Shown piece after piece: positions 1,856-63,076 of a stretch of DNA of 64,000 nt (the first letter of the stretch is position 1; each line of letters opens with the position of its first letter). A program made the translations under genes and the position numbers. Location of the stretch: contig JBBHKE010003464.1 of NCBI GenBank assembly GCA_037447655.1, positions 124,001 through 188,000 on the forward strand, given 5' to 3'. This DNA comes from Zygnema cylindricum. Taxonomy: Eukaryota > Streptophyta > Zygnematophyceae > Zygnematales > Zygnemataceae. The notes under the pieces were generated by a model that was not told where the DNA came from, did no database searches, and worked only from the letters and a program-made list of their open reading frames with translations.

Positions 1856-2768
1856 TGTAATTCTGTGACCTCCATTGGCCCACAGAATGTCCAGCTTATA
1901 TGAAGCCTCTATGATAATATTTTCCCCTATGGATTTCAGATCAAATAGAAGCCACACGGTCAGACAAGAGTTCTAACAAACTTCACCCATGTGAAGGCCC
2001 GACTCCGCTGAGTCACACGCAAAAAGAATTTATGAATTTGCTCCCTTAGTTATGGCTGGCCAAAGATGGCCTATAAATATAAAAGGTCTCTCACAGAGAG
2101 GCGCCTCAAAAATGACTAAGTCTTAAATCCCTCTCCGAACCCCCTACTACTATTGTACCCAACCAATCATAAGATTGTAAAGTACAAGAAAGTACAGATG
2201 CCGTTGTACTTTTTGTACGGCCATGGTACGGCATGGCCGTCCCGTTGACGTCTATTAGTTCTTGAGCAATGGTCGCTCATCCTATAATGTCTACTCTCCA
2301 CTTATGGCTTGCCACGTGTCATCCGCCGACGTTAGCTCATAAACCGCCAAAAAGACCAGTCTGATGCATTGGCTCTAGTGTGCGCTGTCTGATCCTTGAT
2401 CGACATTTAATTACGTTTGTTGAAATTCAATGTTGTTTCATGTATGTCGTTTCGTTTCGTAATCCGCTAAATGGAGTTTGTACTATTGTACGTCTTTAAT
2501 TACAAACCAAACCTGTACGTACATAACTTTTCACCAAGACCCAATGGATAAGACGAACGGCTACGTCGTACGACGCCTACCTAAAGGACCTAGGATCAAA
2601 TCGAACATGGGTCAAATCATTTTGTTAATACTCCTTTCTCTCTCTCTCTCTCCTTAGTTTGCACCTTCTCTGCTAAAGAGGCAACCATGGTGGCTCTCCG
2701 CCTAACTGTCTCTCTCATATTTAGAATCTAGGAAATATACTAGTGACTTGCGAATAACTTTTTCAACA
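1856..2768 (-). repeat. E1 3' LTR
   Basis: On the minus strand it starts TGTTGAAAAAG directly after a GGGGAG tract and ends ...GAATTACA. The 'tgtaattctgtgacctcc' end also begins the LTRs at 52223 and 58259. It contains a TATA-like ATAAATATA near 2068, a GTAC cluster near 2175-2240 and a tRNA-Arg-like segment at 2538-2613. Confidence 0.8.
2538..2613 (+). other. tRNA-Arg-like domain in E1 LTR (antisense to the element)
   Basis: 2538-2555 reads GACCCAATGGATAAGACG, close to the D-arm of plant tRNA-Arg(ACG). An anticodon-like GGCTACG follows at 2559-2565 and a T-arm-like AGGATCAAATCGAAC at 2592-2606. The first six bases GACCCA are complementary to TGGGTC at 2608-2613. The T stem is broken, so this is not a functional tRNA gene. 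Confidence 0.6.
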
Positions 2769-4138
2769 CTCCCCTTAATTCTTAGTTACTTTTAAGTTTC
2801 AATCCATATTTTTATTTTCTGCAAAATAGCAATTTTGGAGAAAGCACAAATTTCGTCATCATATCCGCCACCATTTCCCCATAGCTGGCGTCACTCCAAG
2901 TGGTGATGTTAGTATTTCCCCCGCCCAAATGCAACTATAGATCTCTAGTTCCTACCAAGTATATTATTAATCTCTTTGCTGCCTTTTAGTCTCTCTTCCT
3001 TGGATCATTTAGACTCCTACTTAAAACTCCTATTGATGCCGCTATGTTTGGATGGGTACAATTCATTAAGTAAATTAAACTCTCTACGATCTTTATATAG
3101 AGAATGCGTTTAATGAACTCTCTAGCTTTTTCATCCATCTGATCTAGAATTATCATTCCTCTCTCTTGGCTCCCCTTAGATGCCTTTTTTAAGTCCATTG
3201 GAGTACACCGCCAATTGCTATTAGCGTAGAAGTTTCTTTAACGTATACGAATAATAACAGTGGTGTACGCTAATTAACAATTTGAAAATTCTGAAAGAAA
3301 TCGTCTACTCTTATTAGAAATTAGGGTTATTTTTAAATAGTATAAATAATTATATTTGAGAATTAAAAAAAAAAAAACGGGACAGAATTAGCGTACACTA
3401 CGGTAATAACGATTGGCGGTGTAGAGCAACTGTTGGTTTTCTCCATATGGAACTCTTTTTACATGTTTCCTATTTTCTTCTTTCTGAGTCAGTTTTATTA
3501 TTCTCCTTTCTCTATCTGTTTCCATCTGAATTCTTAAAATATATCTAGCTACTCCTACATCCTTCATCTCAAACTGACTCCTCCAATCCTTCTTCAACTT
3601 ATTGATCTTTTCAATTAACTTACTCAAGACTAATCGATCATCAACATAGATAGCAACAAAAATTACACCATTCTCATCTTCAAACAAATAGATAGAATGG
3701 TTTTAACTGATTTTGATGTATCCAAGGTTAGTCTCAAACTCATCCAACTTGACGTTCCAATGTTGTGGCGCTTGCTTAAGTCCATACAAAGACTTGATCA
3801 ATGTGCACACCTTCTCTCTTGTCCATTCTTCACAAAATCTGTTGGTTGCTTCATGAAGATTCCTTCTTGTTGAACCTCTATGTTTTCCGCTGCTGCTAGA
3901 CTGCCGAAAATTCTGACTACCGGAGCAAAGTTCTCCCCATAGTCTTTCCCCTCTTTCTGTGTGTAACCCTTTGCTACTAACCGAGTTTTATATCTTTTAA
4001 TTGAATTATGTGGGTACTATTTTAGCTTACAAACCCATTTAGATCCGATCGATTTTGTATCCCGAGGGCAATCCATTAATTCCCATGTGTTAGCTTACCT
4101 TATAGATGCCATTTTCTCATGAATAGCAATCATCCATC
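2769..4138 (-). pseudogene. E1 copia pol fragment (RT, remnant RNase H)
   Basis: Reading down the minus strand, reverse transcriptase pieces appear at about 4130-3690 (frame-broken). A YVDD-type active site follows (IYVDDRLVLS, encoded near 3650-3610), and then the RT C-terminal 'thumb/connection' region (2986-3198, MNCTHPNIAA). The RNase H is internally deleted: SDASYG is joined directly to EMVADMMTK near 2878-2890, removing the AQSTMEAEY and DNQAA blocks. A MITE splits the coding sequence at 3206-3421. Multiple stops and frame changes show that it is dead. Confidence 0.85.
3206..3421. mobile_element. MITE-2, 216-bp element in E1 pol
   Basis: The ends CACCGCCAATTGCTATTAGC and their inverted counterpart (GGCGGTG at 3415-3421) form imperfect inverted repeats of about 24 bp. 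TA is present on both sides (3204-3205, 3422-3423), and pol coding resumes after it. A second inner inverted pair (GTGTACGCTAATT / AATTAGCGTACAC) lies inside. TA duplications suggest a Tc1/mariner-type MITE. It has no coding capacity. Confidence 0.8.
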
Positions 4139-7069: not shown

Positions 7070-8080
7070 TGCAATTTTGTGTCCTCCATTGGACCTTATA
7101 ATACAGGAAGCCTCTAGATAGTATTTAACCAACCCACTTCAAGCCACAACCACTGCTGTCCAAGAAGGCAAAATGACAATTTGACTGCACCCTTATAGAG
7201 GTGGGACTCCCCTGAGTCCGTAGCAAAAATAATCACTAAAAACGGCCAATCAGCCAATAAGTTATGAGGCAGTAAAAATGGCAATTTGTACAAACTCTCA
7301 AAGGGAGAGGTGACTTCTTTCCAAAATTTTCTAAGTCCTGATTCCCTTTAATAACTTCTATCTACTGAAGTATGGACCAATCAGATTACTGTACCGTACC
7401 AAAAAGTATTACTGCCGGTGTACCTTTTGTACAGCCTATGTACGACAAGGCACTCTTCGTACATTCCTCGGAATTCCCATGACCGAATGTCATCTCTCCA
7501 CGTGGCTCAAGGTCATGCCACGTCACAAAACGCCAAAGGGACCACTCCGGGATTTCGGCGTTGATGTATGCCGTTGGATTCGCAGCGAGACGCAATCTTA
7601 GCCGTTATAAATACTTGCGCGATATTTGTTTCGCTGTCAAAACAAAATGCGTGGTATTCGTTTTGAAAAAGTGTCGTACTTCGTACATTCATAAATCTGT
7701 ATCTATGCAAGCCGTATACAGTTTTAGTTAAATGAGTGTGTTCCTCCTTATAGATATATATATCTATCACATACTATAGCATTTAGCATTGGTCCTAGTC
7801 TAATAGGATAAAGTTGATGGCTATCGGCAAACTTGACGAACCGAAGGTACCGGGATCAAATCCCGGGTCCGTCAGGCATAATTTTTAGTAACCTACTAAA
7901 AATAACTTCCTGTTTGAACTAAGGCAGCCATGGATCAACCTCCCTCTCTATCCTTCAGTGACTACAACAAGTATGGGGGCTAAAGAGAGGAGTTGGAGGC
8001 AGGCTATCCGTCCTTTTTCTTTTCTTTTATACTAACGTATTAAACCTAGAAAATACTCTAGAAATCTATTATTTTCAACA
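7070..8080 (-). repeat. E5 3' LTR
   Basis: On the minus strand it starts TGTTGAAAATAATAG after tract AAAGGGAAG (8081-8089) and ends ...AAATTGCA. The sequence 'tgcaattttgtgtcctcc' is also the outer end of E12. It contains the GTAC cluster (about 7388-7442), GACTCCCCTGAGTC (7206-7219), a U3 hairpin (about 7925-8005) and the tRNA-like domain. The 5-bp flank at 7065-7069 is TTTAG; the other flank is lost. Confidence 0.85.
7792..7876 (+). other. tRNA-like domain in E5 LTR with perfect T-arm
   Basis: A D-arm-like GTCTAATAGGATAAAG is followed by GGCTATC and then CCGGG-ATCAAAT-CCCGG at 7850-7866. That is a perfect 5-bp stem with a 7-nt loop, exactly tRNA T-arm geometry. It is antisense to E5. Homologous domains occur in the other LTRs of this group. 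The middle is too degraded for a working tRNA. Confidence 0.65.
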
Positions 8081-8094
8081 CTTCCCTTTTCTAG
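8046..8094 (-). promoter_or_regulatory. E5 PPT-spanning inverted repeat
   Basis: In element sense CTAGAAAA (8094-8087) pairs with TTTTCTAG (8053-8046). The loop holds the polypurine tract and the first bases of U3. The pol stop codon TAG is inside the first arm. Confidence 0.7.
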
Positions 8095-11554: not shown

Positions 11555-12929
11555 TGTTGTTCTTTGGTCTAAAATAGACCGCAGAAGCGACCCAAACTAT
11601 CATGCAAAAAGCTAAGCCAAAAATAGGTCGACGAACAATCATTTGAAATGCATCCTCCATTTAACATACAACAACATTTAGGGTTTCATGGAATAATCAA
11701 CATAAATAAACCCTATGACAACATCTAAGGTTTGATGGAATAATCGACATAAACAAACCCTAGGACAAATGCATAAACAATGCATATCAAACATATATAA
11801 AAACATAAATAAATAATAACACACAAATGCATCACACATAAACAAGAGTATTATCAAAGTATAATCATTATATCATTCAAAGTGCATGACCTAATCGGCA
11901 ACCCTAAAATACTACATCTTCGGTCCCCACTTTACTAACCAGCATTGATGATTAAATTCCTAACAAAGCTCATTCCTATATATACACTTGTGAGCTGTCA
12001 ATGAATGACTAAGTGTCAAAATTACCAAAGTAAATTACATAACTGTCACTAAATCAAACTAATCGTAAGCGTACACCTGAGAGTCAAGCAATCGTAAGCG
12101 TACACTTGTCTACAAGTATGATATTGTACACACACAAATTAAACTATCAAAACCCTAATTGATCACTTAAATATAAACATCATAATCAACACTAATTTAT
12201 AATAACGCAAAAGACAAAACAATGTTACTCCAAATATTTACACCGACGCATCCACATATCCGCGTCATAAGTGACAACTTGCTTAGTCACTCGTAGATAA
12301 ATCCACATAGTGAACCGACATCGTATATGTACGGTCCACCTAATTAACACGTCATCAAACAATATGATCCTTTGGAAATATCGGCGGACGCCATCCGCCT
12401 TCCACGTGTACCACGAATCACTTGTCAAACAATCCGGAACGTCCAAAAATAAATATCGTGTGATTGACGCGATTTCGCGTCACCACTACATAAAAATCTC
12501 GGCGGCCTATATCCGCCGTCCGTCGCTCTTAATCGGCACCTTTGATGTCGCGCCGCGTGGTCATAAAAATCCACTTGTCGAAACCTCGTACAATCAAAAT
12601 CATTTTCGTACCGCAAGCGCGTCCCTTGTAATAAATGCGCTTGTCGCATTTTGTTTCGTACGCCATGCGTACATTTTCACACTTCGAAAATTTCAAATCG
12701 GATCGCTTCGCGATCCGCCGTCCATTTACATTGCGCATTCCGCGCCACTCAATTAGTCCTTCACGTACATTTAATTTTCTTCGTACATTTACTCCCCCAA
12801 TCCGCAAATCAATTCGAACCTCCACACTACATCGCGTAAATGCGCACGCACGCGAACACGCACACGCACGAAACGCTCCGTACGCACGAAACGCTCCATA
12901 TGCACGAAACTAAGTTTTCAAAAACAACA
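11555..12929 (-). repeat. E7 3' LTR (1375 bp)
   Basis: The termini are TGTTGTT...AACAACA. The right end has 18-bp tandem units 'cgcacgaaacgctccgta'. It is identical to the partner LTR except for one base I could detect. Short ORFs within it are duplicated exactly in the partner and look non-coding. Confidence 0.95.
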
Positions 12930-12955
12930 CTCCCCCGAAAAATTAGTCTCGTGCA
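12901..12955 (-). promoter_or_regulatory. E7 PPT-spanning inverted repeat (13 bp)
   Basis: TGCACGAAACTAA (12901-12913) and TTAGTCTCGTGCA (12943-12955) are inverted repeats with one G-U type mismatch. The 29-nt loop contains the CGGGGGAG tract and the LTR terminus. Confidence 0.75.
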
Positions 12956-13876
12956 TCCATGGCGCCACGTCATAAGCTGTCACCAATGTTACCTGCTGTC
13001 ACACCTGCTTTCAACTGCCTTCTCCATCTTAATCCTCCAAATGCCTCCGCCATAATTTTCTCACTTGTTCCACCATCGCTTCCGCTAACTCCACATACCA
13101 TCCAAATTTCATAATACATAATATATATATTTTCATTTTCTTTTCTCTTTTCTCAACAATATCTAAATCCGAAAATTTCCCATAAAAATACATAAATAAT
13201 AAACTATTTTCCGAAAATCAATTCTACCAATAATAAATAAAATTCCAACAAAAATTACCACATTTTCCTCTAACTACCATAACAATTTCCAAAAAATAAA
13301 ACTTTCCAAATTTTCTAAATTTCGCGACCCGCGTACTTAATCCCACAAAATAAAACATTAAAAATAAAAGTAAATAAAATCTACATTCTCTATCCCAATT
13401 TTAAGCTCCAATAATGTTACATTTCCCAAAACTACCAACAATCCGAAAAATAAAATCTCATAACATCCCATAATTATAGATCCACAAATTCGGATCTTTC
13501 ACCAAATGCCACAACTCCACCTTTCGGATCTCTCCCCCAAACGTCGAAACTCCTCCTTCCACATCTCTCCACTAAATGTCAAATCTCCACATTTCGAAAT
13601 GCTTCATTAAAAATAAACATTTATTTTCCAAAACTAAAATATTGATTCTCAAAATAAATCATTTTCATTGAGGGTAGACATTTCGACACTGTCACTAAGT
13701 TAACCCTTGGGGCGATGCAAGATTAAACTCGGCACATACCAACACTATGATAAGGCCGATCTCATGGGTACACAGACACCATTACTGCAATACAACCAGC
13801 AAGGACAATATTAACCCGCTACAATGCATGTGACACAAACCTATCTCGACTTAACGTAACATATGATAGATGGGGT
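12930..13876 (-). other. E7 internal region, non-coding
   Basis: This is about 950 bp of AT-rich sequence with long runs of A and T and many 'aataaa' strings. No ORF above 60 codons and no retrotransposon domain are visible. It lies between the primer site and the polypurine tract. Confidence 0.85.
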
Positions 13877-13890
13877 GTGGGCCCATAACC
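13877..13890 (-). promoter_or_regulatory. E7 primer-binding site
   Basis: The minus strand reads GGTTATGGGCCCAC immediately after the LTR end AACAACA. This is complementary to the anticodon arm of initiator tRNA-Met, the same site used by the coding elements here. Confidence 0.85.
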
Positions 13891-15265
13891 TGTTGTTCTT
13901 TGGTCTAAAATAGACCGCAGAAGCGACCCAAACTATCATGCAAAAAGCTAAGCCAAAAATAGGTCGACGAACAATCATTTGAAATGCATCCTCCATTTAA
14001 CATACAACAACATTTAGGGTTTCATGGAATAATCAACATAAATAAACCCTATGACAACATCTAAGGTTTGATGGAATAATCGACATAAACAAACCCTAGG
14101 ACAAATGCATAAACAATGCATATCAAACATATATAAAAACATAAATAAATAATAACACACAAATGCATCACACATAAACAAGAGTATTATCAAAGTATAA
14201 TCATTATATCATTCAAAGTGCATGACCTAATCGGCAACCCTAAAATACTACATCTTCGGTCCCCACTTTACTAACCAGCATTGATGATTAAATTCCTAAC
14301 AAAGCTCATTCCTATATATACACTTGTGAGCTGTCAATGAATGACTAAGTGTCAAAATTACCAAAGTAAATTACATAACTGTCACTAAATCAAACTAATC
14401 GTAAGCGTACACCTGAGAGTCAAGCAATCGTAAGCGTACACTTGTCTACAAGTATGATATTGTACACACACAAATTAAACTATCAAAACCCTAATTGATC
14501 ACTTAAATATAAACATCATAATCAACACTAATTTATAATAACGCAAAAGACAAAACAATGTTACTCCAAATATTTACACCGACGCATCCACATATCCGCG
14601 TCATAAGTGACAACTTGCTTAGTCACTCGTAGATAAATCCACATAGTGAACCGACATCGTATATGTACGGTCCACCTAATTAACACGTCATCAAACAATA
14701 TGATCCTTTGGAAATATCGGCGGACGCCATCCGCCTTCCACGTGTACCACGAATCACTTGTCAAACAATCCGGAACGTCCAAAAATAAATATCGTGTGAT
14801 TGACGCGATTTCGCGTCACCACTACATAAAAATCTCGGCGGCCTATATCCGCCGTCCGTCGCTCTTAATCGGCACCTTTGATGTCGCGCCGCGTGGTCAT
14901 AAAAATCCACTTGTCGAAACCTCGTACAATCAAAATCATTTTCGTACCGCAAGCGCGTCCCTTGTAATAAATGCGCTTGTCGCATTTTGTTTCGTACGCC
15001 ATGCGTACATTTTCACACTTCGAAAATTTCAAATCGGATCGCTTCGCGATCCGCCGTCCATTTACATTGCGCATTCCGCGCCACTCAATTAGTCCTTCAC
15101 GTACATTTAATTTTCTTCGTACATTTACTCCCCCAATCCGCAAATCAATTCGAACCTCCACACTACATCGCGTAAATGCGCACGCACGCGAACACGCGCA
15201 CGCACGAAACGCTCCGTACGCACGAAACGCTCCATATGCACGAAACTAAGTTTTCAAAAACAACA
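13891..15265 (-). repeat. E7 5' LTR (1375 bp)
   Basis: This is the partner of 11555-12929, of the same length and near-identical. In element orientation it precedes the primer site. Confidence 0.95.
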
Positions 15266-17674: not shown

Positions 17675-17901
17675 AGGTTTGATAAAATCTTAGATTTATC
17701 AGTATATGATTGCTTAAAACTAAAACATCCAAAACTTAGGAGGAGTGTTGTTTTTGTAAAGTTTTGGATGTTTAGTAGTAGAGGTTGTGAGAGGGAATTT
17801 TGTTTTAATTCTGAATATTTTCTAAGTTCTTGCTTTTGTATATATTTTCATTACAGTAGAAAGATGCGGAGTGAAGTACTGAGTCTAAAGCTTTAGGGGA
17901 G
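17675..17901 (+). other. E6 3' untranslated region with duplicated PPT/LTR start
   Basis: After the stop there are two successive tract-plus-LTR-start units. The first is AGGAGGAG-TGTTG at 17738-17750, followed by a diverged LTR start to about 17840. The second is TTAGGGGAG-TGTTG at 17893-17906, which starts the real LTR. Each is enclosed by its own inverted repeat. Confidence 0.75.
17723..17773 (+). promoter_or_regulatory. E6 upstream PPT-type inverted repeat (15 bp perfect)
   Basis: AAACATCCAAAACTT (17723-17737) and AAGTTTTGGATGTTT (17759-17773) are perfect inverted repeats around a 21-nt loop holding AGGAGGAGTGTTG. Confidence 0.8.
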
Positions 17902-17923
17902 TGTTGTAATTTGAAAGCTTTAG
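17885..17923 (+). promoter_or_regulatory. E6 PPT-spanning inverted repeat (10 bp perfect)
   Basis: CTAAAGCTTT (17885-17894) and AAAGCTTTAG (17914-17923) enclose a 19-nt loop with AGGGGAG and the LTR start TGTTG. Confidence 0.85.
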
Positions 17924-19244: not shown

Positions 19245-19910
19245 TGAAGGTTATGGGCATTAAGACTCTGCTGTGATCCACTCCCAGTAGGAGTCACACT
19301 TGCACTAGCAGGTGCAGGTGGAGTACTAGGGCTAATAAGAGCACTTGTAATAGGAGCTGAGCCATTATCAGACATGTTAGCGGAAGCAAAACCAAAGAGA
19401 AATGCCTAAAAGACTAGAACTATAGTGTAAGATATGTACCTCCAAACGAAAGAGGTCTTTCAACCAAACAAACATGTACTACAAGCAAATTAGAGACAAT
19501 AGTGCATAAAACACCTTAAACTGCACTGAGTGCTCTCATTTCTTTAACTTTTTTGTAGAATGAACATTCTGTATCGATTTGATCAATCCTAATTGAACTA
19601 AATACTTAAAAGATCTAGAAAACATCTAAAACGTATGTACAAGGTTCACCAGACAACCAACTAACAAAAATCTAATTGTTTGGACCAGAATTGTCCACTA
19701 ACAATATCTGTACCCTAAAAATCCGGGTGATTCTTATCACGTCTACATTCATTGGCGGCCATACACACTAATTTACTTAAAGATAACTATTCGTGTAGAT
19801 ACTACAAAAAATCCACACTAAATTTGGTCAATATTGAAGAGTTGGTATTCCAAAAATATTGTAAGTTCTATACTCAAATTTCTAAGGCTAACTAAAGCTT
19901 ACTTTTCAAT
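19245..19910 (-). repeat. E8 3' LTR
   Basis: It matches 24046-24739 on the same strand, including the serine/alanine-rich Gag leader segment (MSDNGSAPITSA...) that this LTR encodes. The boundary at 19910/19911 is where the two copies stop matching. Confidence 0.8.
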
Positions 19911-19928
19911 TCTCCCCTTAAGCTTTAG
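19892..19928 (-). promoter_or_regulatory. E8 PPT-spanning inverted repeat (10 bp perfect)
   Basis: In element sense CTAAAGCTTA (19928-19919) pairs with TAAGCTTTAG (19901-19892). The 17-nt loop contains AGGGGAGA. The first arm overlaps the pol stop codon. Confidence 0.8.
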
Positions 19929-28197: not shown

Positions 28198-28266
28198 TGT
28201 AGAAACTAATGTTTTTATTAGTATTTTCTAGGTCTGAGAAGAAATATAGAAGTCGAGGCAGTCTAT

Positions 28267-28332
28267 CTCTAACTTCTCTCTCCAACTCTCAAACTTGTCG
28301 CAGTCACTGAGAAATCGGAGAGGAAGCTAGAG
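28267..28332 (+). promoter_or_regulatory. U3 hairpin with conserved loop in E11 LTR
   Basis: CTCTAACTTCTCTCTCC (28267-28283) pairs with GGAGAGGAAGCTAGAG (28317-28332). The loop carries CTTGTCGCAGTCACTGA, which is nearly invariant across the LTRs of this group while the stems differ. Confidence 0.7.
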
Positions 28333-28415
28333 CCATGGCTACCTTGGCTATCGTGAGGTTTACGGGAATTTTATATTAGGGTTTATTTATTTATTTAAAA
28401 GGTATGTGCCGGCGG

Positions 28416-28482
28416 CAGGATTTGATCCTTGTACCTACCGGCCGGCAGGCAGGAAATAGCCGGTAGCCTTAGCCGTTTAGTC
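28416..28482 (-). other. tRNA-Arg-like domain in E11 5' LTR
   Basis: On the minus strand a D-arm-like GACTAAACGGCTAAGGC (28482-28466) is followed by a T-arm-like AAGGATCAAATCCTG (28430-28416). It is antisense to the element. Confidence 0.6.
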
Positions 28483-29227
28483 TAGCGGTAGTGTTACGTA
28501 TCATATAGTTTGATATTTATTTAAATATGTATACGTGCGATAAACCATTTAACTGAAATGAATTACGGGATACATAGATCCAGTAATATATAATGTACGA
28601 CTTACGGTACGGACAAAAATCAGTACCGCGCATTTGTTTCGTAAATGAAACAAATACCGCGCATGTATTTATTACGGCTACGATTAAAGCCGAATTTAAT
28701 CGGACGGCCGGGATTAGCGCCGAGATCGCGGAGGAAGATTTCGGCGGTTTGTGGCCATCGCCACATCGGATGACGCGTGGCGAAATTCCGTTGGATTGTG
28801 GAATCTCCGGAGATTATGGCACCGAATCCGGATTTGACATGTGTCGACATTTTGGCCATGTCGTACAATGTCCGTACATAAAGTACACCGGCAGCTGTAC
28901 TTTTGCGTACGGAACTCAATTCTGATTGGTTCCGTACATCAGTAGATAGAGTCTGTGAGAGAGATAGGACTTAGAAAAATTAGAAGATAGGACCCCTTCT
29001 CCCAGAGAGCTTCAGTACAAAAGGTCAACTTTGACCCTCCATAACTTCATGCTCAGGGGAGCAAATTCAGAGATTCTTTTTGCAACCGACTTAAGGGATT
29101 CTTGTCTTCACAAGGGTGGAGGTGGTCAGGGTTTTTTGTCTGCCAGGGTGGCAGTTATTTTTGTTGGAACACAAAGGGGTCAGGATTATCCTAGAGGCTT
29201 CTTGGAAGCTGTCTACTCTGAGGACTT

Positions 29228-30250
29228 ATGGAGGTCTCAGAGTTTCAGGTTATGGGCCCACCCTCTAGGGTACCAATCTTTAATGGAACTGGCTTCATAT
29301 ACTAGGAAAGTATGATGATAGGAGCTCTATGCGAAAAAAGGTTTTGGGGGATAGTGAGTGGACGGTTGGGGGGTCCTTCAAGTCTTGGAATTCCTCTAGG
29401 GTTTGGAGGAACCAGATTCACCAGGAAAGAGGACCCACCTTCAACGGAGGAAACAAAAGAAGGAGAGGTGGTGGACAAAGGAAAGGAGAAGGAGACGACC
29501 ACACCAATAGCAACTGGTTCGACATTCATGTCACCTATTCCGAAGAATGAGGAGAATGATACTGAAACCTGGGACTTCAACAATATGGCAGCAAAGTACT
29601 TCATCCTACGCCATCTCACTGAAGGACTTGCATGTCCTCATTTGCAGGTAGAAAGAGCATCGATCTTTGGATGGCTCTCATAGAGATGTACCGAAGTGGT
29701 AGGATTCAGCAACAACAGTTGGCTGATCAGAAAGTTAAGGAGTATGTATACAACGGGGGAAATATGTTGGATTTTTGCAATGAGCTTGCTACACTCTTCA
29801 TGGAGCTACAGAGTGCGGGAAAAGATTTGAGTGAAAAAGAAAAGGTTAACTGTTTACTGATGAAGTTACCTGATGAGTTCGTGAACATAGTTTACCGTGT
29901 GCAGGACTTGCCTGACTCAAGGTGGATATGGAACTCAGTGGTAGGAATGATTCTCGTTCAAGAGAATACAATTGAGATCCGAAGGGGAGGAAAGAGTGGC
30001 CAAGCCTTGGCAACAGCGACTGATTGGAGGAACAGGGATTCCCGAAAACCGGTCGGAAACTATGGGGGTAGGGAGCAGAAAAAACCGGCCGATGAGTTCG
30101 AACCAAGGGCTCCCAAAGGACTATGTCATTTTTGTAAGAAACCGGGGCACTATATGGCAGAGTGCACTAAGCTAACCGAGCTTCGGTTAAAGGAGGGGCA
30201 GACCGGTGGTACCCCGAGAGGAAAGAAAAAGGCCCTTGTCACACAGGTAC
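29228..30250 (+). pseudogene. E11 gag
   Basis: The ATG at 29228 lies inside the LTR, and the reading MEVSEFQVMGPPSRVPIF crosses the primer site. A TAG replaces the Trp codon of the conserved IYWE motif near 29301. A frame change near 29640 leads into the Gag core (LMKLPDEFVNIVYRVQDL) and the CCHC knuckle CHFCKKPGHYMAEC at 30124-30165. Compared with the intact E12 Gag, only the stop and one frameshift prevent a full-length product. Confidence 0.9.
29248..29262 (+). promoter_or_regulatory. E11 primer-binding site
   Basis: GGTTATGGGCCCACC is a 15-base complement of the plant initiator tRNA-Met anticodon stem-loop (GGUGGGCCCAUAACC) and immediately follows the LTR. It is in frame with gag (VMGPP). 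Confidence 0.9.
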
Positions 30251-31478: not shown

Positions 31479-33585
31479 GTGTTCAGTCTAGATACCGATC
31501 GGTCCAATTGGAAGCTAGATCCTAAAGGAAAACCGGGATACTTATTAGGATATGATGAAGATGTAAAAGGATATAGAGTTTATGATCTAAAAAGGGAAGA
31601 TATAATCTTAGTAAAGCATCTAGTAGTTATGGATGAAGGAAAGTCTGTGGATCCCTTCAAATATACGAAGTCAGTAAAAATCAGATTTGAGTTAGAAAAT
31701 TCCGATGACTTTGAGCTTCCTAACTATCCAGGTTTTAGAGAAGATGACATTCTTGTAGGAAAAAATCAGACCGAAAAGGACTCGGCTGTGGAAACTCCAG
31801 TGACAACTCTACTCGAAGCGGAAGACGTGGTGGAAATTGATTCGGAATCAAGGGATAGGGGAGAAGCCGAGTTTGTTCGAAAGAATCCACGAGAACCATC
31901 TATTCTGGCCTCAGATTTTGAGGGGGGGAGGAGAAGTAGCAAAAGACTGCAAGAAAAACAGGTTAATAACAAGGTAACTAAACTATCTCATCAAGATGAA
32001 CCTCAAACTTATGGAGAGGCGATGACTTGTCCAGAAAGAAACCGGTGGAAGACAGCCATCAATGAGGAGATGGCTTCAATCATGGCACCCGATACTTGGG
32101 AGCTGGTGGACTGTCCACCTAACCGAAAACCAATCGGTTGTAAGTGGGTTTTCAAATTAAAACTGAACCCAGATAACACAATCGAACGCTACAAGGCCAG
32201 ATTAGTGGCAAAGGGATTTACACAAAAGGAAGGAATTGACTACAAGGAAACCTTTGCCCCGGTGGTCAGATTTCCCTCCGTCCGCATACTTCTCAGTTTA
32301 GCAGCGGCGGAAGACATGGAAGTGCATCAGATGGACATCAAGACAGCATTTTTGCATGGAGAATTGGAAGAGGAGATCTTCATGCGACAACCCGAAGGTT
32401 TTGTGGAGGAAGGAGAGGAGAGTAAGGTATGCCGGCTGATTAAATTTCTTTATGGTTTGAATCAGGCACCTCAACAATGGAATAAGAAGCTTCATGAGTT
32501 TCTTACCGGTCTGGGATATATTCGGATCAGCTCAGATCACTCAATCTATGTTTTTGAAGATGAGGAAGGTTTGATATTTATTGCAATTTATGTTGATGAT
32601 TTGCTTGTATTAAGTAAATCAATGGAAAAAATTAACAAACTGAAAAACCGATCTTAAGGGGAGATTTGAAATGAAAGATATGGGAGAAGCAAGATATATT
32701 TTGGGAATTCAAGTAGAGAGAGACCGAAAAAGAAAAATTATAAGATTGACTCAAAAGGAAGCAATAGGGAACATGCTTGAAAAATTTCAAATGGATAAAG
32801 CTAATAGTTGTACAACTCCAATGGAGTTGAAGAAGGGAAGTGAGGGGAGTGAGGAAGAAGGAGTCATAGTCTTAGACGAGGAATTATCTCCTGATGAACA
32901 GAAGTTCATGCAGACTATTCCTTACAGGCAAGTAGTGGGAAGTCTAATCTATTTTATGAATTGTACCCGGCCGGATTTAGCTGCAGCTGTAGGAGTGCTG
33001 AGTAGAAGTCTAAATGCTCCCACTAAGAAGGATTGGGAGGCAGCTAAGAGAGTCCTTAGATATTTGGTAGGAACTAGAGATCTATGGTTGCATTTGGGTG
33101 GGGAGAATACTAACATCACTACTTGGAGTGATGCCAGTTATGGTGATGCTCCGATGAGGAGATGTACTTCTGGATATGTATTATATGTGGGTGATGGGGC
33201 TTGCTGTTGGAGTAGTAAACAGCAAAAGGTTATTGCTCAGTCCACCATGGAGGCTGAGTATATGGCCTCTTGCTCTGCTGTAAAAGAATTGATGTGGGTC
33301 AAGTCTTTGCTTGGTGAGCTTGGTCACCTTAAGAGTGGTGTGCAGAAAATATTTTGTGATAATCAGGCAGCAATCGCTATTTCTGCCAATCCTAAACACC
33401 ATTTTAAAGCCAAACACATGGACATCAGACTCAGCTTTGTTAGAGAGAAAGTAGAAAACAAAATAATCAGTTTAGAGTACAGACCAGATAGTGAAATGGT
33501 AGCAGATATGATGACCAAACCTGTGCCTTCCCCTAAGCTAATTTTTTGCAGGGAGAAGTGTGGTCTGAAATTAAAGATTGACTAG
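31479..33585 (+). pseudogene. E11 reverse transcriptase-RNase H
   Basis: A 392-codon ORF (31479-32657) carries the integrase tail and RT ([42 protein letters not shown] at 32589-32600). After a short indel near 32645 a 304-codon ORF (32671-33585) carries the RT connection region and RNase H (TWSDASYGDAP, AQSTMEAEYMA, FCDNQAAIAI, MVADMMTK). The second ORF differs from that of E21 by only a couple of residues. One indel is the only lesion in this half, so the enzyme was functional until recently. Confidence 0.93.
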
Positions 33586-33632
33586 AAAATAAGGGGAGTG
33601 TAGAAACTAATGTTTTTATTAGTATTTTCTAG
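33582..33632 (+). promoter_or_regulatory. E11 PPT-spanning inverted repeat (10 bp perfect)
   Basis: CTAGAAAATA (33582-33591) pairs with TATTTTCTAG (33623-33632). The 31-nt loop holds AGGGGAG, the LTR start and a nested small pair ACTAA/TTAGT. The pol stop TAG is in the first arm. Confidence 0.85.
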
Positions 33633-34647
33633 GTCTGAGAAGAAATATAGAAGTCGAGGCAGTCTATCTCTAACTTCTCTCTCCAACTCTCAAACTTGTC
33701 GCAGTCACTGAGAAATAGGAGAGGAAGCTAGAGCCATGGCTACCTTGGCTATCCTGAGGTTTACGGGAATTTTATATTAGGGTTTATTTATTTATTTAAA
33801 AGGTATGTGCCGGCGGCAGGATTTGATCCATGTACCTACCGGCCGGCACATAGGAAATAGCCGGTAGCCTTAGCCGTTAAGTCTAGCGGTAGTGTTACGT
33901 ACTATATAGTTTGATATTTATTTAAAAATGTATACGTGCGATAAACCATTTAACTGAAATGAATTACGGGATACATAGATCCAGTAATATATAATGTACG
34001 ACTTACGGTACGGACATAAATCAGTACCGCGCATTTGTTTCGTAAATGAAACAAATACCGCGCATGTATTTATTACGGCTACGATTAAATCCGAATTTGA
34101 TCAGACGGCCGGGATTAGCGCCGAGATCGCGGAGGAAGATTTCGGCGGTTTGTGGCCATCGCCACATCGGATGACGCGTGGCGAAATTCCGTTGGATTGT
34201 GGAATCTCCGGAGATTATGGCACCGAATCCGGATTTGACATGTGTCGACATTTTGGCCATGTCGTACAATGTCCGTACATAAAGTACACCGGCAGCTGTA
34301 CTTTTGCGTACGGAACTCAATTCTGATTGGTTCCGTACATCAGTAGATAGAGTCTGTGAGAGAGATAGGACTTAGAAAAATTAGGAGATAGGACCCTCTC
34401 TCCCAGAGAGCCTCTGTACAAAAGGTCAACTTTGACCCTCCATAACTTACTACTCAGGGGAGCAAATTCAGAGATTCTTTTTGCTACCGACTCAGGGGAG
34501 TCTTGCCTTCACAGGGGTGCAGGTGGTCAGGGTTTTTGTTTGCCAGGGTGGCAGTTACTTTTTCTGGAACACAAAGGCGTCAGGATTATCCTAGAGGCTT
34601 CTTGGAAGCTGTCTACTCTGAGGACTTATGGAGGTCTCAGAGTTTCA
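33599..34647 (+). repeat. E11 3' LTR (1049 bp)
   Basis: This is the partner of the 5' LTR, with the same termini and tens of substitutions. It retains GACTCAGGGGAGTC and TGCCAGGGTGGCA in the leader part. Confidence 0.95.
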
Positions 34648-44521: not shown

Positions 44522-45620
44522 AAAATAAACGAGTTTCTTACCGGTTTGCAATATATCCGAATCAACTCCCATCACACCATTTACCTCTTCGAGGACAAAA
44601 ATGTGGTTATTTTTATTGCAATCAATGTAGATGATATACTAGTTCTGGGCAAGTCTAGTGATAAAATAAATCATCTAAAGAAGAGCTTAAGCAGTAGGTT
44701 TGACATAAAGGATTTAAAGTAATCTAAATATATTTTTAGAGTAAAAATAAAAAAAGATAAAGATACGCAAAAAATAAGACGAACTCAGAAGGAAGCAATA
44801 TGTAATATGCTCCAAGAATTTCAAATGGACAAACAAAATAGTTGTACCGCACCCATAGATCTAAAGAAGGTCACTGAAAAGAAATGCTAAGGGAGGATTC
44901 ATAGTTTAAGGTGACCACAATAGTCTAAAAGAACAAGAATTTATGCAGAACATTCCATTTAGGCATATTGTAGGAAGTCTAGTCTGTTTTCTGCACTGCA
45001 TCCGACCAAATATAGTAGTTGCAATAGGTGTCCTCATTAGGGTTTTAAACAATCCCAAGATAAATGATTGAGACTCAGCCAAGAGAGTGATGGTATATAT
45101 TATAGGAACAACAAAATTATGGTTGAATCTGGGTTAGGATCATAGAGACATCACCACTTGGAGAGTTGCCAGTTATGGGGATGTGCCGTTGAGAGGGTGT
45201 ACGTCTCGACATATCTTGCAAATTGGTTTGGGTGCTTGTTGTTGGAGATGTATGTAGCTGAAGGTTGTCACTCAGTCCACAATGGAGCCTAAACATATGG
45301 CCTCATGTGCAACTCTGAAAGAGTTAATGAGGGTGAAGACTTTATTTTAAAAATTAAGAGTTATGAAAGATTATGCCCAAGATATCTTATATGATAGTCG
45401 CGCAACAATAGTAATCGTTGCAATCTTATACACCATTTTAAGGCAAAACACATGGATATCAAACTTTGCTTTGTAAGGGAAAAGGTGGACAACAAAATTA
45501 TCAAAGTTGTTTATACACCAAATGGGGAAATGGTTGCTAACATGATGACCAAGTCTGTCCCATTTCCCAAATTGATTTATTGCATATAATGTTGTGGTCT
45601 AAAGGAGAAACAAAGCTAAA
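44522..45620 (+). pseudogene. E13 RT-RNase H, heavily mutated
   Basis: FLTGLQYIRINSHHTIYLFED is followed by IAINVDDILVL (YVDD changed to NVDD) and FDIKDLK. After stops there are recognisable RT connection and RNase H blocks (SCTAPIDLKK, PRPNIVVAIGVL, QSTMEPKHMAS, GEMVANMMTKSVP). Many stops show that it is old. Confidence 0.82.
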
Positions 45621-45632
45621 AATTAACGGGAG

Positions 45633-46349
45633 TGTTAAAAAGAGTAATTTGTATCGTGCCTCTCATTTAGATTTTTAAGGTTCTCTGACTTACCAGGTTC
45701 TAAGAGTGTAGGAGTTAGAGAGAGCCATGGCTACCTCTCTCGTAGCGAGGCTGATAGGCTAAGGCAAAGATTGAGAAACAGAAAGAGTAAACTCTAACAA
45801 AAAAGGGTGGATTGACCAGGATTCGATCTTGGTCATACAAAGTCCCTACTAGCCGCCTTAGCCGTCGTCCGTATCCATTTGTATACACACATGGAGTGTT
45901 TTACTGCAATAAAGATATTATGCACAAAAATGTAATTTAACAGAGGTGGACAAAAATTGTCACACATATATATAAGGAATGTTACGAGCGTGCCGAACAT
46001 TCGGCGCGCCGTGTAATTGAACGAACAAAATTAAATAAACATTCTGATCGGACGGCACGCAAAGAGCCGACAGCCCGAAATGGTCCTTTTGGCGGCTTAA
46101 CCAAAAAGATAGCAGGATAAATTAAAAAGCATGATGGTAACCCATCTGAGTTAAGGGGTACAAAAGGGGTGGCATGGCCAAAACTGAAAAACTACAATAA
46201 AAAAGCAAATAGAGCGATGGGAACACAACAAAAAAAGAGAAAAGAAAAGAAACAATCAATAAAAAAAACATAAACACCCAAACTCAAAATGAAAAGTACG
46301 TCAACCCACAAAACCAAGGCTACAACCCCCACCCCAAACTGAACGCAGA
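45633..46349 (+). repeat. E13 3' LTR, truncated
   Basis: It starts TGTTAAAAAGAG after AACGGGAG. It contains the antisense T-arm-like hairpin GACCAGGATTCGATCTTGGTC at 45814-45834 (B-box-like GATCGAATCC on the minus strand). The last roughly 150 bp before 46350 are A-rich and may already belong to something else. Confidence 0.7.
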
Positions 46350-47414: not shown

Positions 47415-48308
47415 TGTTGTTCTAAAAAAGACTATTGGAACTGAAGACGATGAGGATGCGGGTGAGAAAGAAAACAAGCGTGAAACTTTCACAAAAACTG
47501 GTCTGATAAATAGCAACTTCAAAAGTTGATGAGTCACAAACCAAAAACACAATAGCTCTAAATATCTAACACAACGTAGATTTTATCAAGATGAACAGAC
47601 ACAAAAAATTACAAGTTATTTTGAAGCGAGATTTGAGAGATATTCACAAATTAAAATGCCAAAAAAAACATGTACAGTTTTTGACTACAAAGTGTCCATT
47701 TCTATAAAATTGTCCAAGTCCTACTCATATACACTAAAGCCTATGCTGCTGAACGTACGGAGACATACTAGCCTTACAATAATTACCTAGCACATTTAAA
47801 ACGGCGAGTATAATAAAACCGAACAAGGCACATCATACAAAAAGAATCCTACACTAATCAACTAACCACAGAAAGACAAAAATATGTTGAACAACATATT
47901 TACAAAGGAGTAGGATTTTGTATGCCACGTGATTTGTCATCTATGTTGTCCACACCGACCAACATTTTTTGTCGGTCTCCGTCCGCCGCCTAGATATCAC
48001 ATTAGGCACCGTAGACAAATCTCCATGTGCCAATTCGTCCTCAAGTGTATCTATACACCAACAAACGGATATTCTGGAGTGTCTTTTTTCTTTTAGTGAC
48101 GTGTGTCTCGGGAGTGTATACTATGTGTACTCCCTACCGAGCTACTATAACATCAATTGTGGTTTGTACTGAACCAAACTTACAACCAATCATATACTAA
48201 GTTGTGAAACTCTCTCTCCCTCACACGAGAGGCATACAGAGGGCTAAAGCTTTCATAAACAGCACTCCCCTAAAGCTTCAAAACTTGCTAGCCACTTAAA
48301 CCACATGC
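47415..48308 (-). mobile_element. E15, 3' end of a minus element (LTR plus pol tail)
   Basis: The LTR 47415-48264 starts TGCTGTTTATG and ends TTAGAACAACA on the minus strand. Then comes tract AGGGGAG and 44 bp of pol tail (ACGLSG..., like the E8 C-terminus) before E16 cuts in. It inserted into satellite DNA at ATTTG (47410-47414). Confidence 0.78.
48244..48281 (-). promoter_or_regulatory. E15 PPT-spanning inverted repeat
   Basis: In element sense TTGAAGCTTT (48281-48272) pairs with AAAGCTTTAG (48253-48244), ten pairs of which two are G-U type. The loop holds AGGGGAG and the LTR start. Confidence 0.75.
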
Positions 48309-51105: not shown

Positions 51106-52222
51106 GTAATTTTATCTTCTATCTCTTTAGTCTATGGTCTTTATACAACCTTCATAACGCATGCAAAGAGAGTTAAAAAAACTCAATCTCCAAATCATGT
51201 TTGTATTTGCGGTAATTACAATATTGGTAATTAACACTATAAATTGTTAACGCTCACAAAAATAGTTCAAATAAACTCTCAACCATATTTATACCTCAAA
51301 TTTGTGCTTCCGCTAACTAAGATAATTGTAACAAACAACGTTTAATGTTCGCCCTCATAATAAAAGGTAAAACAAACTCCAAACCGTGTTTGTAACACAC
51401 TTTTTGTTTGTGCTAACAAAAATATTGGTAACAAGCACTTTATATTGATATCCCTCACAAAAACAGTTCAAATATACGCTCAACAATGCTTATAACTCAA
51501 ATTTGTGTATACGCTAACAACAATTTTTTTTTAATGAACAACGTTTATTAGTACTCTCACAAAAACGGTAATAATTAACCCTTAACTATGTTTGCAACAC
51601 ATATTTTTGTTTGCATTAACAAAAAAAAGAAAACGAACAAAGTTCATAGTTAACGCACACAAAGAGAGTAAAAAATAACCCTAAACCATGTTTCTATCAC
51701 AAATTTGAGTTTGCGCTAACAAAGATATTTGTCTCAAACAATGTTTATTGTTCGCGCTCACAAAAAGAGGTAAAATAAACTCCCAACTATGTTTGTTACA
51801 CAACAGTGCGTTTGCGGTAACAACAATATTGGTAACAAACACTAAATATTGTTCACGCTCACAAAAATAGGCTCTCAAACATGTTTATAACTCAAAATTG
51901 TGTTTGCGCTTACAATAATTTCTTCTAACGGACAACGTTTAATAATACGCACACAAAAAAAGTAAAAGAAAACCCTCAACTATGTTTGGAACACGAATTT
52001 GTATTTGCGTTAACAACTAAATATTAACAAACAAAGTTTAATGTTAACGCACATAAACAAAGTTAACAAAAACCTTAAACCATTTTTCTAACAAAAATTT
52101 ATTTTTCCGCTAACAAAGATATTTGTAACAAACAACGTTTATTGTTTCCGCTCACAAAAAGAGGTAAAATAAAATCCAAACCGTGTTTATAACACAATCG
52201 TGTGTTTGCGGTAAAGACAATA
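51106..52222 (+). repeat. Satellite array, ~100-bp monomers with higher-order structure
   Basis: About 11 tandem AT-rich monomers, each containing 'tttgcgctaaca', 'caacgttta', 'gctcacaaaaa' and 'aaccatgtttgtaac' blocks. The first 40 bp are transitional. By eye the variants fall into four classes that repeat in fixed order, giving a unit of about 400 bp. The array borders E16 on the left and the E17 LTR on the right. Confidence 0.85.
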
Positions 52223-52505
52223 TGTAATTCTATGACCTCCATTGGTCCACAGAATGTCCAGCTTATATGAAGCCTGTAGGATAATATTTGCACTTTTGAA
52301 TTTAGCAATGAATAGGTTCCACCCTGGCACAAAAAAAATCTAATCGATTACACCCTTGTGTTGCGTGGACTCTGCTGAGTCTGCAACAAAAAGAATCACC
52401 GAAATTGCTAACCTAAATATTTAGTTATGGCTGGCCAAAGATGGCTTGTAACTGTAGATGCACTCTGAGAGAGAGGCGGCTACCTAAATATTTTCAGGTC
52501 CTAAG

Positions 52506-53847: not shown

Positions 53848-53882
53848 AGAAAATACCTTTTTAAACTCTCCCCTTATTTTCT
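53848..53882 (-). promoter_or_regulatory. E17 PPT-spanning inverted repeat (8 bp)
   Basis: In element sense AGAAAATA (53882-53875) pairs with TATTTTCT (53855-53848), with AGGGGAG in the 19-nt loop. Confidence 0.7.
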
Positions 53883-62017: not shown

Positions 62018-63059
62018 TGTAACTCTGAGACCTCCATAAGTCCTCAGAGTGGACAGCTTCCAAGAAGCCTCTAGGATAATCCTGACCCCTTTGTGTTTAA
62101 GCAAAAATAACTGCCACCCTGGCAGACAAAAACGCTGACCAACTTCACCCCTGTGAAGACAAGACTCCCCTGAGTCGATAGCAAAAAGAATCTCTGAATT
62201 TGCTCCCCTGAGCAGTAAGTTATGGGGGGTCAAAGTTGACCTTTTGTACAGAAGCTCTCTGGGAGAGGGGGTCCTATCTTCTAATTTTTCTAAGTCCTAT
62301 CTCTCTCACAGACTCTATCTACTGATGTACGGAACCAATCAGAATTGAGTTCCGTACGTAAAAGTACAGCCGCCGGTGTACTTTATGTACGGAAATTGTA
62401 CGACATGCCCTAAATGTCGACACATGTCAAATCCGGATTCGGTGCCATAATCTCCGGAGATTCTACGATCCAACGGAATTTCGCCACGCGTCATCCGATG
62501 TGGCGATGGCCACAAACCGCCGAAATCTTCCTCCGCGATCTCGGCGCTAATCCCGGCCGTCCGATTAAATTCAGATTTAATCGTGGCCGTAATAAATACA
62601 TGCGCGGTATTTATTTCACTTCCGAAACAAATGCGCGGTATTGATTCGTAATCCGTACTGTCATTCGTACCGGATCTATGTATCCCGTAAATCGTAACAG
62701 TTAAATGAATTATCGTACGTATTCCAATTTATATAATTATCAAACTACATATCACGTAATACTACTGCTAGATCTAACGGCTAAGGCTACCAGCTATTTC
62801 CTGTCTGCCGGCCGGTAGGTTCAAGGATCAAATCCTGCAGCCGGCACAATCCTTTTAAATAAATAAATAAACCCTAGTATAAAATTCCCCTAAACCTCAG
62901 GATAGCCAAGGTAGCCATGGCTCTAGCTTCCTCTCCAATTTCTCAGTGACTGCGACAAGTTTGAGATTTGGAGAGAGAAGTTAGAGGTAGACTGCCTCGG
63001 CTTCTTTCTATATTTCTATTTAGACCTAGAAAATACTAATAAATCCATTAGTTTCTACA
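62018..63059 (-). repeat. E21 3' LTR (1042 bp)
   Basis: On the minus strand it starts TGTAGAAACTAATGG and ends CAGAGTTACA. It matches the E11 LTRs closely and carries GACTCCCCTGAGTC (62164-62177), the GTAC cluster, the tRNA-like domain (62771-62837) and the U3 hairpin (about 62925-62995). Confidence 0.92.
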
Positions 63060-63076
63060 CTCCCCTTATTTTCTAG
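63026..63076 (-). promoter_or_regulatory. E21 PPT-spanning inverted repeat (10 bp perfect)
   Basis: In element sense CTAGAAAATA (63076-63067) pairs with TATTTTCTAG (63035-63026). The loop holds AGGGGAG and the LTR start. Confidence 0.85.

Follow-up and report, generated by a model that had tools for sequence, protein, structure and literature searches.

Inverted repeats at the polypurine tract/3' LTR junction of copia elements in Zygnema cylindricum: new instances of a described feature

A 64,000-nucleotide stretch of the Zygnema cylindricum genome (contig JBBHKE010003464.1; hereafter, the window) holds many nested copia elements, as judged by self-comparison, and in several of them an inverted repeat encloses the polypurine tract (PPT) together with the first bases of the 3' LTR. 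A preliminary description of the window listed such repeats in eight elements, with stems that differ in sequence, and took them for an undescribed signal. The locus raises the question of whether these repeats are a structural signal at the site of plus-strand priming or an accident of sequence, and whether they are of a new kind.

Six window proteins were compared with Pfam; three matched RVT_2 (one below the cut-off) and three matched Retrotran_gag_2, one of the latter also containing Pol_BBD. Copia-type gag and reverse transcriptase domains are therefore both present, as expected of Ty1/copia elements (Pseudoviridae). The Sirevirus signature, AGGGGGAG and then AT before the TG of the LTR, was not found: the E11 junction reads AGGGGAG and then TG, and the E7 junction reads CGGGGGAG and then TG, so that by this signature alone the elements would not be classed as Sireviruses. 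Rfam gave no match within the window. For E11 and E7, the LTR ends were set by comparing the two LTRs and by the target duplication; for the others they were inferred from the PPT-TG junction. The E11 LTRs (5', 28198-29247; 3', 33599-34647) are 96.7% identical with TCCGG on both sides, and these bounds place the left arm of the repeat in the internal region and the right arm in U3, as the preliminary description held. E7 is a short element (11555-15265, minus strand) inserted in another copia LTR, with CTTAT on both sides and less than 1 kb between 1377-bp LTR-like repeats that are 99.93% alike (one mismatch).

All of the arms first listed were located on the expected strands (Table 1). Most are perfectly complementary; reading the sequences, we noted one G.T pair in E7 and two G.T/T.G pairs in E15. 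The left arm abuts the PPT, with an offset of 0 in 12 of 13 positive junctions and of 1 base in the L028a junction, while the right arm lies inside the 3' LTR, 10-27 bases into U3 (positives, E17 aside), leaving the PPT and LTR start in the loop. Hence the geometry described as fixed is so for the left arm only. Nor is GGGGAG common to all loops, E5 having GGGAAG and E6a AGGAGGAG. The cases are real, but the eight elements do not count as independent: E11 and E21 belong to a single family (94.7% identical over 1996 bp), E5 and E17 fall in one RNase H lineage, and the stems of E6b, E8 and E15 are of one type. The E11 loop also holds a second, small inverted repeat, CTAAT/ATTAG (33607-33622, plus strand), that adjoins the right arm and is kept in E21 and L007 with different loop bases.

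Table 1. Positions of junction hairpins, their parts and two stemless junctions in the window (p, against random anchors)
Feature	Position	Strand	Left arm	Right arm	p	Remarks
E11 left arm	33582..33591	+				overlaps pol stop codon 33583-33585
E11 polypurine tract (PPT)	33592..33598	+				3' LTR starts at 33599
E11 right arm	33623..33632	+				starts 24 bases inside U3
E5 hairpin	8046..8094	-	8087-8094	8046-8053	0.0108	PPT between arms
E7 hairpin	12901..12955	-	12943-12955	12901-12913	0.0008	folding z -7.15
E6a, internal PPT hairpin module	17723..17773	+			0.0008	15-bp stem
E6b, terminal PPT/3' LTR junction hairpin of E6 element	17885..17923	+			0.0032	
E8 hairpin	19892..19928	-	19919-19928	19892-19901	0.0108	
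E15 hairpin	48244..48281	-	48272-48281	48244-48253	0.0208	two wobble pairs
E17 arms	53848..53882	-	53875-53882	53848-53855		
E21 hairpin	63026..63076	-	63067-63076	63026-63035	0.0136	E11 family
E1 PPT/U3 junction (at 2775)	2715..2800	-			0.32	negative; no anchored stem
PPT/U3 junction at 45626	45600..45670	+			0.12	negative; no significant anchored stem

The supposition that nothing of this kind had been reported in copia elements proved wrong. Bousios et al. 2010 (PMC2829016) report an inverted repeat at a precise position around the PPT/3' LTR junction, present in all but three of the Sireviruses that they studied and in almost half of the classic Ty1/copia elements, Mosqcopia being named among the latter; in their proposal the repeat exposes the PPT for correct primer formation by RNase H, the same plus-strand priming role that the preliminary description inferred. 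The likeness is close: in both, the left arm ends at the PPT and the right arm lies just inside the LTR (here by a mean of 15.6 bases over 12 junctions, without E17; 18 is reported for classic elements), only part of the elements have a repeat, its sequence varies by element, and the left arm is partly coding where the linker is short (PMC2829016). Stems differ in length, at 10-18 bp here and 19 bp on average in the classic elements. The hairpin is a described kind of feature, and those of the window are new instances. Mosqcopia is, going by its name, presumably a mosquito element. We regard it as very probable that the repeats in the window are the junction repeats of Bousios et al. Benachenhou et al. 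2013 (PMC3601003) restate that hairpin, cite the HIV-1 genome structure (Watts et al. 2009) in the same connection and ask for a systematic search elsewhere; their hairpins likewise expose the PPT in a loop whose stem is made of LTR and LTR-adjacent sequence, and the text examined adds no new copia hairpin data, whereas the present work covers one genome. In yeast Ty3 RNA, probed by SHAPE-MaP (PMC11381356), the PPT also lies in a structured retrotransposon RNA context, but there the PPT itself is base-paired, in a lower-probability prediction, and Ty3 is not a copia element. A literature search that reached few subscription papers recognised no systematic PPT-hairpin search or functional test. 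What we add is a partial test on many copies in one genome, and with it a one-genome, partial answer to the published call for such a search.

Applied to these elements, the published proposal would run as follows. In the RNA of the element, the internal arm, which directly abuts the PPT on its 5' side, would pair with the arm in U3 and leave the PPT and first LTR bases in the loop; the stem may thereby mark or expose the terminal PPT, RNase H would spare precisely that primer, and plus-strand synthesis would start from it at the LTR. A flush left edge fits a stem that marks or presents the terminal PPT to RNase H. That the RNA folds in this way is our inference from the arms, and we judge a role of the stem in plus-strand primer formation to be about evenly poised between true and false. 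Alternatively, the stem might serve another RNA step (packaging, stability or 3'-end formation) and lie at the PPT incidentally. In favour of this, the E11 left arm holds the pol stop codon, so that the stem lies where the 3' untranslated region begins. The stem nevertheless tracks the PPT edge across all 13 positive junctions, and the left arm falls within the coding region in some of the published elements (PMC2829016), so that it is not the stop codon that sets the position of the stem; we consider this alternative very unlikely.

The repeats could also be chance ones in A+T-rich sequence, singled out by a reader looking for them, and the preliminary description had not listed junctions that lack an anchored stem (E1 at 2775, minus strand, and 45626, plus strand). 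We scored, at each junction, the best stem whose left arm ends no more than 1 base from the PPT, with the E11 copies collapsed, against a null of 5000 random window anchors. Thirteen of 18 junctions had a stem at p<0.03: E5, E6a, E6b, E7, E8, E11, E15, E17 and E21 in the window, and L008b, L021a, L028a and L028b elsewhere in the genome. Values of p<=0.0032 were reached by E7, E6a, E6b, L028a and L028b; E11, like E21, had p=0.0136. The remaining five junctions (E1, 45626, L016, L019a and L019b) had no significant stem, L016 being borderline (p=0.058), so that an excess over random positions holds for most junctions but not for all. E17 reached p=0.0278 with a stem other than the one first named for it, and was not significant against shuffled left arms (p=0.087). 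As many of the 18 junctions had been noticed for showing a stem, those picked by RNase H homology alone are the fairer sample. Eight of these 13 were positive (E11 and E21, which are one family, E17, E8, E5, L008b, L021a and L100), the negatives being the same five as above. For L100, offsets as large as two were allowed; it scored 27, where the null has its 99th percentile at 23. A second RNase H match in L021 (end 287) had no clear PPT and truncated matches in L019 and at window 51003 had no junction; these were left out.

Folding, in comparison with shuffled sequences, is a weaker witness for the hairpin. In 6 of 16 stretches of 48-86 bases, z was -2 or lower (E7 -7.15, E6a -6.65, L028b -4.03, L028a -3.22, E6b -2.91, E11 -2.43), the other 10 remaining above this, and for L028a the minimum-energy fold differs from the hairpin of the repeat. 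E8, E15 and L100 fold into the repeat, yet no better than many shuffles; the repeats of E5 and E17 do not form in shorter stretches (51 bases for E17) and form in longer ones (121 bases for E17), and other folds were chosen in longer stretches of E21 and E8. The failure of E15, E8, E17 and E5 to surpass shuffled sequences in folding speaks for chance repeats. The five lowest p values, the eight positives among homology-picked junctions and the exchange of arms described next, together with the random-anchor null, make chance a highly improbable explanation overall.

Arms pair better with their own U3 than with that of other families. For 21 junctions, we computed how many left-arm bases are expected to pair with U3, which was 11.55 for own pairs, 10.15 for within-family swaps (112) and 7.14 for between-family swaps (308). 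With one representative for each of seven groups, which we set from sequence likeness, a fraction of 0.0135 of 2000 permutations reached the own value. Own pairing was the best of all 21 combinations in only three junctions (E7, E6a and E17), and it fell below the median swap in L005, E15, L016 and L019a. In this genome, the two arms correspond by family and the left one abuts the PPT; a stem is absent from some elements. The flush geometry, the own-versus-swapped contrast and the differing but matching stems across families support a structural signal at the PPT/U3 junction, in line with the preliminary description, even though covariation within families is weak.

Covariation had been claimed from stems that differ between elements. 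That matching stems differ between families stands, and we looked within families by searching the genome (352.8 Mb, 2689 contigs). The E11 family yielded 27 further copies, each differing from that in the window at 2 or fewer of 201 bases; they come from the best-scoring 40 of 1569 candidates, so older copies lie outside the sample. Two of them (L005 and L008) carry a one-sided change in the left arm. Being nearly identical, these copies are uninformative for covariation. For E6, we took 29 of 41 terminal-junction matches (leaving out nine that begin at the LTR, the window copy, one fragment and one other) and 20 of 40 internal-module matches; with the window copy and L028a, the 51 rows gave 47 distinct ones after identical rows were collapsed. 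One row, L088, runs at its end into sequence of another family, and its alignment is probably wrong. In the true register 91.0% of cells of the terminal hairpin pair, against 24.6-58.5% when the arms are slid by 1-3 bases. Two-sided changes affect 4 pairs and 12 cells; slid registers give 1-6 pairs and 1-8 cells, so that the true register is ahead in cells only, not in pairs. A single C-G to T-A switch accounts for 7 of the 12 cells (L078, L079, L080, L082, L083, L084 and L087), with L056 holding the T.G state at that pair; it probably reflects one or few events. Within-family covariation in the R-scape sense is weakly supported: there is this one convincing switch, in 7 of 47 distinct rows, and otherwise mostly one-sided change, far short of what the wording of the preliminary description implies.

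The E6 element carries two modules in tandem with different stems (17723-17923, plus strand). The first, E6a, had been listed as a PPT and LTR start; it is instead a copy within the element, about 160 bp upstream of E6b, which is the terminal junction, with 157 bp from PPT to PPT in the window. Matches of the two types lie side by side on eleven contigs. E6a was rejected as an LTR start, since none of 40 scored matches begins at its U3-like base, whereas nine terminal-junction (E6b) matches have their start at U3 or adjoining it, the pattern expected of 5' or solo LTRs. By eye, the U3-like part of E6a resembles the terminal U3, and from sequence we read E6a as a putative captured piece of an older PPT/U3 junction. 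Its 15-bp inverted repeat sets it apart from the upstream PPTs of Sireviruses, which reportedly have none (PMC2829016). Among 20 distinct E6a rows (21 before identical ones were collapsed), 94.0% of cells pair; changes number 21 in the left arm and 6 in the right, and none is two-sided. At L089, the terminal junction is locally duplicated. Separately, L109:2018 (plus strand) has an E6b-type U3 start after AGGGGAG with the left arm absent, possibly an LTR at another site.

The E6 double module and the duplication at L089 speak for the possibility that the repeats are a mutational by-product, in which reverse transcription at the PPT, through template switching or quasi-palindrome correction, repeatedly copies one arm onto the other with no selection for structure. 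The C-G to T-A switch could stem from one such event. We hold this to be unlikely, however, as it accounts neither for flush PPT geometry across different families nor for the different stems that they maintain.

The main rival to a hairpin in element RNA is one that acts in minus-strand DNA after RNase H has cleared the template around the PPT, where the paired arms would stack on the 5' edge of the PPT RNA and fix the 5' end of the primer. The exact abutment of left arm and PPT in 12 of 13 positives suits this account, as does the absence of a plus-strand wobble excess at the E6 terminal hairpin (12 G.U, 25 A.C and 47 other non-Watson-Crick pairs). It would have the arms compete with the RNA:DNA hybrid, and the internal module leans the other way in its departures from Watson-Crick pairing (9 G.U, 1 A.C and 17 other; small numbers). 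Since most copies look dead and in neutral decay, neither wobble count is a clean test, and we think the minus-strand account improbable, if less so than the other alternatives. A more specific form of it, in which selection acts on the hairpin in minus-strand DNA, where it would dock the 5' end of PPT RNA, with two docks in E6, strikes us as a long shot; if true, tandem E6 docks with different stems may start plus strands at two places. The best explanation overall, which we hold with somewhat more confidence than doubt, is that of the known junction repeat marking or exposing the PPT for plus-strand priming. The junction hairpin is in this respect a testable candidate for what directs RNase H to the terminal PPT of copia elements.

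A scan of viral contigs found 81 stretches that fit a pattern, none of which was confirmed as a relative by RNase H alignment. The borderline L016 junction belongs with a second copia RNase H lineage (L016:9482-9844, plus strand), 37% identical to that of E11. Self-matches in the window also revealed a direct-repeat run at 51155-52227 with a period near 100 bases. Lastly, L018:6158 (minus strand, in reverse-strand count) encodes a calmodulin-like peptide, which we take to be plant- or green-alga-like from its appearance.
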